Of a DNA stretch of 64,000 nt, positions 41,338 to 45,089 are shown one piece after another. The DNA is from Actinomycetota bacterium. GTDB taxonomy: Bacteria > Actinomycetota > Acidimicrobiia > Acidimicrobiales > Ilumatobacteraceae. Positions within the stretch are counted from its first letter, which is position 1. Each line of letters opens with the position of its first letter. The stretch covers positions 1-64,000 of the forward strand of contig JAUXQB010000117.1 of the NCBI GenBank assembly GCA_030685215.1, in the 5' to 3' direction. The position numbers and the translations under genes are program-made. A model generated the notes under the pieces. It was not told the origin of the DNA. It made no database searches and saw only the letters and a list, made by a program, of their open reading frames with translations.

Positions 41338-43335
<1,998 letters not shown>

Positions 43336-43365: not shown

Positions 43366-44358
43366 TCAGTCGCCGAGGTCGAGCGGCGACGCGACCGACG
43401 CGGAGGCGCCGAGCAGTTGCCCGTTGCGCAGCACGGTGACCGGGCCGTCCTCGCTGACGACGACGATGGTGGCCAGCGGGTCGTCGAAGCTGTAGCGGCG
43501 CCCGGCTGTGTGTCGCATGCCGCGGAAGCCCTCGATGCTGTCCTCGGCCTCCGGGCTGGGCACCAGCCGTACGCCGATCTGGAGCAGCGTGCCCGACGAG
43601 TCGAAGATGGTGGCGCCGTCGACCTGCGCGAGCACGTGGCGCAGCGGCGCGAGGTCGGAGGGCCGGGTGATCTGCAGCGGGGGAGGGGTGGGCAGTCGCT
43701 GCTCGAACGCCGGCCAGTCGCCGTCGTCGTCGGGTCGGTAGACGAGGATGGCTCCGATGCCGCGTGCGCCGAGGTCGTGCACCGCGAACTCGAGCATCGT
43801 CTCCATCACGTCGCGGTCGCCGTGCACCGGGCACGCCTTGATCGAGTCCATCCATGCGGCGACCAGTGGTTCGTGGTGCCAACTGAGTCCGTCCCAGCGG
43901 AAGACGCCGAACTCGCCGACGATGCGCACCGCGCCGGTGGGGTGGCGTTGCACGATCCGTGCCCGCATCGCCTCCGCCAGCACCACCAGGTCGCGTTCGG
44001 AGCCGGCCGGCCGGTCGAGCACCAGCCACTCGTCGCCGCCGGTGCTGCGGCGGATCAACCAGCTCGACAGCCCGTCGGCGTAGCGGCGGGCGCTGCCGAC
44101 GGGGCGGTCGCCCACGTCGCGGCGGCTGATGGAGAGCTGCGTGTCGTGCTCCCACTCGGTGGGATCGGTGAGCGGATCGATGATGGCGCCGAACGTGGGA
44201 ACCCTCCGCTCGTGAACGGCGGGTCGCATGGCGTACGCCAGCTCCGCGATCGCGAGATCGTGCCACGGCTGCGTGCCGTCGAGGCCGAGCCCGGCTTCTC
44301 CCAGTTCTTCGACCAGGCGGCGGACCTGGCCGGCGGTCGGCGGTCGGTCGAGCTTCAT
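43366..44358 (-). CDS. Diadenylate-cyclase (DisA_N/DAC) domain protein, variant active site
   Basis: A protein of 330 aa. Residues about 185-315 follow the DAC fold: EFAVHDLGARGIGAILVYR, then the DGA motif at 247-249 (VDGATIFDSSGTLLQIG), then GMRHTAGRR where active enzymes have GTRHRAA, then ATIVVVSEDGPVTVLRNGQL. DAC enzymes join two ATPs into c-di-AMP; DGA and RHR contact the nucleotides. Here the last Arg of RHR is Thr, so activity is uncertain. The first 180 residues form an unrecognised domain. There is no DisA helix-hairpin-helix C-terminus and no membrane helix, so it is neither DisA nor CdaA type. Confidence 0.75.
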   Translation of the reverse strand: MKLDRPPTAGQVRRLVEELGEAGLGLDGTQPWHDLAIAELAYAMRPAVHERRVPTFGAIIDPLTDPTEWEHDTQLSISRRDVGDRPVGSARRYADGLSSWLIRRSTGGDEWLVLDRPAGSERDLVVLAEAMRARIVQRHPTGAVRIVGEFGVFRWDGLSWHHEPLVAAWMDSIKACPVHGDRDVMETMLEFAVHDLGARGIGAILVYRPDDDGDWPAFEQRLPTPPPLQITRPSDLAPLRHVLAQVDGATIFDSSGTLLQIGVRLVPSPEAEDSIEGFRGMRHTAGRRYSFDDPLATIVVVSEDGPVTVLRNGQLLGASASVASPLDLGD

Positions 44359-44423: not shown

Positions 44424-45089
44424 ATGATCGGTCTGCGCACCCTGGCCCGTACCGCCGTCGTGGCCGTCACAGTCGTGGCCATCGGCATCGGTCTCGTCGC
44501 CTGCTCCGACTCGTCGTCGGGCGACGGCGCAGGCACCGCCTCCTCCGACAGCACCGCGACGGAGCGCTCCGACTCGGTGGCCGCCACCGACGGCACCGTC
44601 GTCGACGAGAGCTCCGTGAGCGCGACCACTTCGTCGGTGGCGAGCACCACCACGTCGCGCCCCGCGACCACCGTCGCCACCACCTCGACGGCGCCACCGC
44701 CGGAGACCAGCGACCCGTTCGCGAGCGCGCCCGAACCCGACGACACCGAACCCGACGACTTCGTCGGCCCCGCCGCGGACGACTGCGTCGATGCTGCAGC
44801 AGGCGCCCCGACGGCCGAGATCGTGCTCGACGACGACCGCATCCTGTTCGGCGGCACCGCGGCGCCATCGTGCCTGCGAGTGCACATCGGCCAGCGGATC
44901 GCCGTGCGCAACTCGGGCTCGGTACGCGCCGAGGTGCTCGTCGGTTCCGAGATCCTCACCGTCGAGCCCGGCGCATCGGCCAGCACCGAGGTGCTGAGCA
45001 CGCGCTACGCCGTCGCCGACGTGTTCGACGTGTACGTCGAGACCATCGACGCCACCCTCATCGTGCAGGTGATTCCTAGTAGCAGGTGA
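44424..45089 (+). CDS. Putative lipoprotein with Cys-paired C-terminal domain
   Basis: A protein of 221 aa. The signal sequence ends in a lipobox (GIGLVAC), so it should be membrane-anchored outside the cell. A long Ser/Thr/Ala/Asp linker (residues about 27-115) follows, then a beta-rich domain of about 105 residues with two Cys (DDCVDAAAG and PSCLRVH) and LDDDRILFGG, AVRNSGSVRAEVLVGSEILTVEPGA. The minus-strand gene at 53378 encodes the same architecture and a related domain. The function is unknown. It is divergent from the DAC-domain gene, with only 65 bases between their starts. The stop lies in a small tandem duplication. Confidence 0.78.
   Translation: MIGLRTLARTAVVAVTVVAIGIGLVACSDSSSGDGAGTASSDSTATERSDSVAATDGTVVDESSVSATTSSVASTTTSRPATTVATTSTAPPPETSDPFASAPEPDDTEPDDFVGPAADDCVDAAAGAPTAEIVLDDDRILFGGTAAPSCLRVHIGQRIAVRNSGSVRAEVLVGSEILTVEPGASASTEVLSTRYAVADVFDVYVETIDATLIVQVIPSSR

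Follow-up and report, generated by a model that had tools for sequence, protein, structure and literature searches.

A DACNK-DAC protein of an Acidimicrobiales genome as a probable accessory diadenylate cyclase with a putative DAC-like sensor domain

Locus and domain architecture

We analyzed a window of 64,000 nucleotides from an actinobacterial genome of the order Acidimicrobiales and focused on the gene encoding a 330-aa protein, hereafter P0001 (Table 1). The reading frame of P0001 is open for just three codons upstream of its ATG start. A DACNK domain (PF21753, 65.5 bits, above the cut-off) is located N-terminally to a DAC domain (PF02457, 36.2 bits, cut-off 27), and among 17 relatives the DACNK profile matches 16 and the DAC profile all 17. 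P0001 is a member of the DACNK-DAC family, which is catalogued in Pfam yet uncharacterised; it matches the Pfam members in its two domains and their arrangement and comes from the same order of Actinomycetota, with no difference from them. The N-terminal domain had been proposed as new in the initial annotation. This novelty was rejected, as the domain equals Pfam DACNK, described there as "Probable sensor domain". The DACN names likely stem from the 2023 work of Galperin, "All DACs in a row" (J Bacteriol 205:e00023-23), to which DACNK is reportedly also due.

Table 1. Features of the P0001 locus (window positions)
Feature	Positions	Strand	Remarks
DACNK-DAC protein (P0001), probable diadenylate cyclase	43366..44358	-	330 aa, ATG start
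DACNK domain	43870..44322	-	residues 13-163; Pfam, conservation, predicted structure; degenerate DAC-like fold (predicted)
DAC domain	43417..43785	-	residues 192-314; Pfam and structure
DGA motif	43612..43620	-	D247-G248-A249, from translation
RHT motif	43507..43515	-	residues 282-284, RHR in canonical DACs; from translation
SED motif	43447..43455	-	residues 302-304, SEE in CdaA; from translation
DUF255/Thioredox_DsbH gene	41338-43335	-	Pfam; 30 bp downstream of the P0001 gene
Divergent lipoprotein gene	44424-45089	+	lipobox LVAC, Ser/Thr-rich stretch, no Pfam match

The motifs were as initially described: the translation has an intact DGA (in the context VDGATIF) and RHT in place of RHR (GMRHTAGRR). 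P0001 is also distinct from DisA, CdaA and CdaS, as had been suggested. It shares with DisA the DAC fold, DGA and the RH pair, but its DAC domain is C-terminal, its motif is RHT, and the linker and helix-hairpin-helix (HhH) DNA-binding domain of DisA are absent by Pfam. Like CdaA, CdaS and CdaM, it carries the DAC domain at the C-terminus and is expected to be regulated through its N-terminal part; in contrast to them, this part (residues 1-172) is a predicted soluble α/β domain (pLDDT 91) rather than a CdaA-type transmembrane region, the CdaA N-domain has no Pfam match in it, and no conserved partner gene lies nearby. Searches of PDB sequences with P0001 and with a profile of its N-terminal domain gave no DAC match, Padloc and PHROGs matched nothing useful to P0001, and promoter and terminator scans were negative.

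Catalytic motifs of the DAC domain

The full-length P0001 model was built using AlphaFold2 with 25 relatives (pLDDT 88, pTM 0.84). In this predicted structure, 129 residues of the segment 171-320 align with M. tuberculosis DisA (9y4s_A) at an rmsd of 2.6 (Z 14.9); for CdaA chains, the DAC domain reaches Z 12-13. The DAC assignment of the initial annotation is thus borne out by both the HMM and the structural comparison.

In Listeria CdaA, ATP is contacted by Leu31, Asp71, Thr102, Arg103, His104, Ser122 and Glu124, and by the main chain of Leu88, Gly101 and Glu123 (PMC7288161). Of the RHR residues, the first Arg and the His are among the given contacts and the third is not; adenine is contacted through the GALI motif and one main-chain group (PMC7288161). 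We counted conservation of the corresponding positions across 67 distinct relatives, 66 of which are scored at some columns. D247 is found in all 67, and the D and A of DGA are invariant. G280, H283 and S302 are each present in 66 of 66 sequences and R282 in 64 (Lys otherwise), while D304, an Asp in place of the metal-binding Glu, is kept in 57 of 66. P0001 also keeps GAI, compared to GALI of CdaA. R and H of the RHR motif are retained in P0001 and the third Arg is missing. Position 284 is Thr in 53 relatives, Arg in 10, Ala in two and Ile in one, so that the third Arg is absent in 56 of 66; within the closer subfamily both DGA and RHT are kept in all 25 members.

The RHT variant does not bar P0001 from the DAC domain family, because other Pfam DAC members also lack RHR; RHM, RHV or RYN occur at this place in other actinobacterial DACs. 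The RHR-to-AAA triple mutants of M. tuberculosis DacA and M. bovis CdaM are inactive, a loss that cannot be assigned to the third Arg by itself, since all three residues were changed at once. The activity of M. tuberculosis DacA survives a change of the Gly in DGA, which is consistent with the DLA and DRA variants seen in the DACNK-DAC family. Judging from these sequence comparisons, RHT is probably not disabling, and it is fixed in one clade. The RHT motif itself thus stands as initially noted, while altered chemistry is weakly suggested at best, given that the third residue is no listed CdaA contact, that RHT is clade-wide, and that RHM, RHV and RYN are found elsewhere.

DAC-like fold of the DACNK domain

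The DACNK domain was also predicted alone (pLDDT 91, pTM 0.88). In a Foldseek comparison with the PDB, DAC chains take the first 18 places (best E 0.006, probability 0.97). After realignment the best 40 entries are all DACs, with 111-125 aligned residues and Z 4.6-6.9, values below 8 that can reflect a common arrangement; the next unrelated fold, fructose-1,6-bisphosphatase, has Z 3.1. A fructose-1,6-bisphosphatase-like N-terminal domain, considered from the full model (Z about 4), was dropped on the basis of this comparison.

Helices and strands follow one another in the same order in the DACNK and DAC halves of the model. By this order of elements, and not by residue-level superposition, A94-D95-G96 is found at the place of DGA, G119-S120-E121 at that of GxRH, and Q137-R138-H139 at that of SEE. 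The conserved DACNK residues are E39, E50, R91, D95, G96, E121, R138, R145 and W160, of which D95, G96, E121 and R138 do not vary among the 67 relatives. In the model, DACNK seems to keep a D-G pair, with the phosphate-binding RH replaced. At the sequence level, hhalign gave no match between the two halves. Against a broad DAC profile, DACNK had one match of 27 columns, with an E of 0.037 as a single comparison, whose register agrees with the fold; when a global alignment was forced, it did not outperform shuffled controls.

It is likely from the predicted structures that DACNK shares the DAC fold, and common descent of the two domains, with almost no profile signal, is plausible only; we keep to these grades because Z values below 8 are ambiguous and the sequence profiles are nearly signal-free. 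With a DAC-like DACNK, P0001 therefore looks like a degenerate DAC and a predicted active DAC in tandem. More tentatively, DACNK might be a duplicated and degenerated DAC rather than a generic sensor, and the protein an intramolecular pseudo-dimer, in which the dead half has turned into a regulatory ligand site.

Taxonomic distribution and gene neighbourhood

A search of 397 genomes from the order identified full-length or near full-length relatives of P0001 (rows above 190 bits) in 45. Across the phylum, DACNK was found in four of 296 genomes, all of them from this same order. Named carriers are Aquihabitans, Desertimonas and Ilumatobacter, and most of the others are Acidimicrobiales MAGs; no relative is present in 14 further genomes from the genus of the window. 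In the tree, 47 rows form a clade that has DGA and nearly always RHT, and 10 rows form another with DLA and RHR (support 100/99); a few rows branch deeper, and some genomes carry members of more than one clade. Thus, the exchange between RHT and RHR represents one or few old events and not a genome-specific quirk. No copies were found in viral contigs and plasmids, leaving a viral or plasmid origin unsupported.

The divergent lipoprotein gene starts with an ATG 65 bp away, as initially annotated. A common operon with the DUF255 gene had also been suggested, but this pairing is conserved in none of 46 related loci; with DUF255 near no other copy, an operon function was rejected and the neighbour is considered incidental. 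Among 38 non-redundant loci there are no conserved neighbours, the shared ones being only common transporters and dehydrogenases. A defence scan of 85 flanking ORFs of the relatives gave two GajA-like matches and one or two matches to Pycsar-type cyclases, and Pfam assigned the flanking ORFs to mixed housekeeping genes, as are the neighbours in the window. CBASS genes were found neither in the window neighbourhood nor among the 85 flanking ORFs, and a defence island has no support from these scans. The P0001 gene is an accessory gene that stands alone and occurs patchily.

The c-di-AMP setting of the genome

The suggested search for a canonical disA elsewhere in the genome was positive: contig 4 encodes a DisA that scores 398 bits against the DisA equivalog and comprises the DAC domain, the DisA linker and HhH. 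Therefore, P0001 is a second DAC protein and not a replacement. Potassium-transport domains of the RCK_C (TrkA_C) type, possible targets of c-di-AMP, are also encoded in the genome. No ydaO (c-di-AMP) riboswitch was found in the genome.

Proposed function and alternative explanations

We estimate at about 60% the probability that P0001 is an accessory cytosolic diadenylate cyclase of DACNK-DAC architecture regulated by its pseudo-DAC domain, where the catalysis, the c-di-AMP product and the regulation are all predicted. The C-terminal DAC domain would bind ATP, and two DAC domains facing each other would join two ATP molecules into c-di-AMP. DACNK, a predicted degenerate DAC-like fold without the phosphate-binding RH pair, would most likely have a regulatory role, acting as a ligand-binding site or forming a pseudo-dimer with the catalytic domain. 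The protein would work in addition to DisA, and as a lone gene it would probably produce a diffusible messenger rather than serve a dedicated partner. In favor of the cyclase we count the two Pfam matches above their cut-offs, the structural similarity of the C-terminal domain to DisA and CdaA, the near-invariant equivalents of the CdaA-type ATP contacts (64-67 of 66-67 relatives), the retention of DGA and RHT throughout the closer subfamily, and the fact that DACNK alone rises above background only with DACs. In the DS-2 DAC, where the DACN sensor domains are different ones, phage defence depends on the predicted catalytic residues (PMC13092281, which has Galperin 2023, "All DACs in a row", among its references); this dependence, together with RYN in a DS-2 relative, is counted on the same side. 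The loss of the third Arg, the dead RHR-to-AAA mutants, the Glu to Asp change at the metal site and the lack of a riboswitch match in the genome are counted against it, as is the near absence of a profile signal between DACNK and DAC. We found no literature on enzyme activity of DACNK proteins.

The missing third Arg would also fit a DAC without catalytic activity that serves as a nucleotide receptor for ATP or c-di-AMP, with c-di-AMP supplied by the full DisA of the genome. However, 67 diverged relatives show hardly any variation at the catalytic Asp, the Arg, the His and the Ser/acidic metal loop, although a receptor would need neither the metal-binding acid nor the catalytic Asp, and P0001 lacks both an effector domain and a conserved partner gene; we regard such a receptor as unlikely. 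Synthesis of another nucleotide by the DAC fold, either a mixed cyclic dinucleotide or a linear product, appears quite unlikely: GAI is kept, CdaA contacts adenine via GALI and the main chain, and nothing suggests another base. What speaks for it is the fixation of RHT in one clade next to a sister clade with DLA and RHR, and the absence of the RH pair from DACNK, so that an internal DACNK:DAC pair would be asymmetric in the model.

A role as a phage-defence cyclase, similar to the DS-2 DAC beside CBASS, is very unlikely. The anti-phage DS-2 DAC (NF053872; DACNG-DACNH-DAC) is the best NCBIfam match of P0001, a weak one of 19.3 bits to the DAC part alone, far below the equivalog cut-off of 630, and the patchy distribution, down to the absence from 14 other genomes of the genus, would suit a defence gene. 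The two proteins are similar in having a DAC domain C-terminal to DACN-type sensor domains, but the sensor domains differ, and the CBASS neighbours of DS-2 have no counterpart at P0001. Moreover, the neighbours of the relatives are neither conserved nor enriched in defence genes, those in the window are housekeeping genes, and no viral or plasmid copies of the family were found.

Other actinobacterial DAC proteins and implications

Several further DAC architectures were observed in Actinomycetota. In genomes G247 and G300, a DsbA/thioredoxin-like domain is fused in frame to a DAC domain with the motif GSRHM (L142, a whole ORF on the minus strand, and L141), possibly, from its sequence, a redox-linked diadenylate cyclase. 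A DACNG-DACNH-DAC protein (L139, genome G195) scores 519 bits against the DS-2 model (cut-off 630) and has GSRYN in place of RHR. Genome G289 encodes a DACNV-DAC protein with GTRHR (L143), and the actinobacterium G154 a PK_C/DacZ_P-DAC protein with GTRHV (L138). Most sampled genomes of one actinobacterial family (f45) carry two to six DAC-domain matches; in its member G300, six matches have E <= 0.001 and three of these are above the cut-off.

DisA has been reviewed as the sole DAC-domain protein in Actinobacteria (PMC10117811). At least two DAC matches are present in 31 of 208 DAC-bearing actinobacterial genomes, and these multi-DAC genomes, together with the DACNK-DAC family, contradict this view in Acidimicrobiales and in other orders. 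For specialists, the DAC-like fold predicted for DACNK and the tandem design of a pseudo-DAC and a DAC may be what is new. Should DACNK prove to be the dead half of a DAC pair, this would account for the origin of one unexplained DAC sensor domain, and internal control of c-di-AMP synthesis by a pseudo-enzyme would become directly testable. If the pseudo-dimer holds true, P0001 would represent a diadenylate cyclase with built-in asymmetry.
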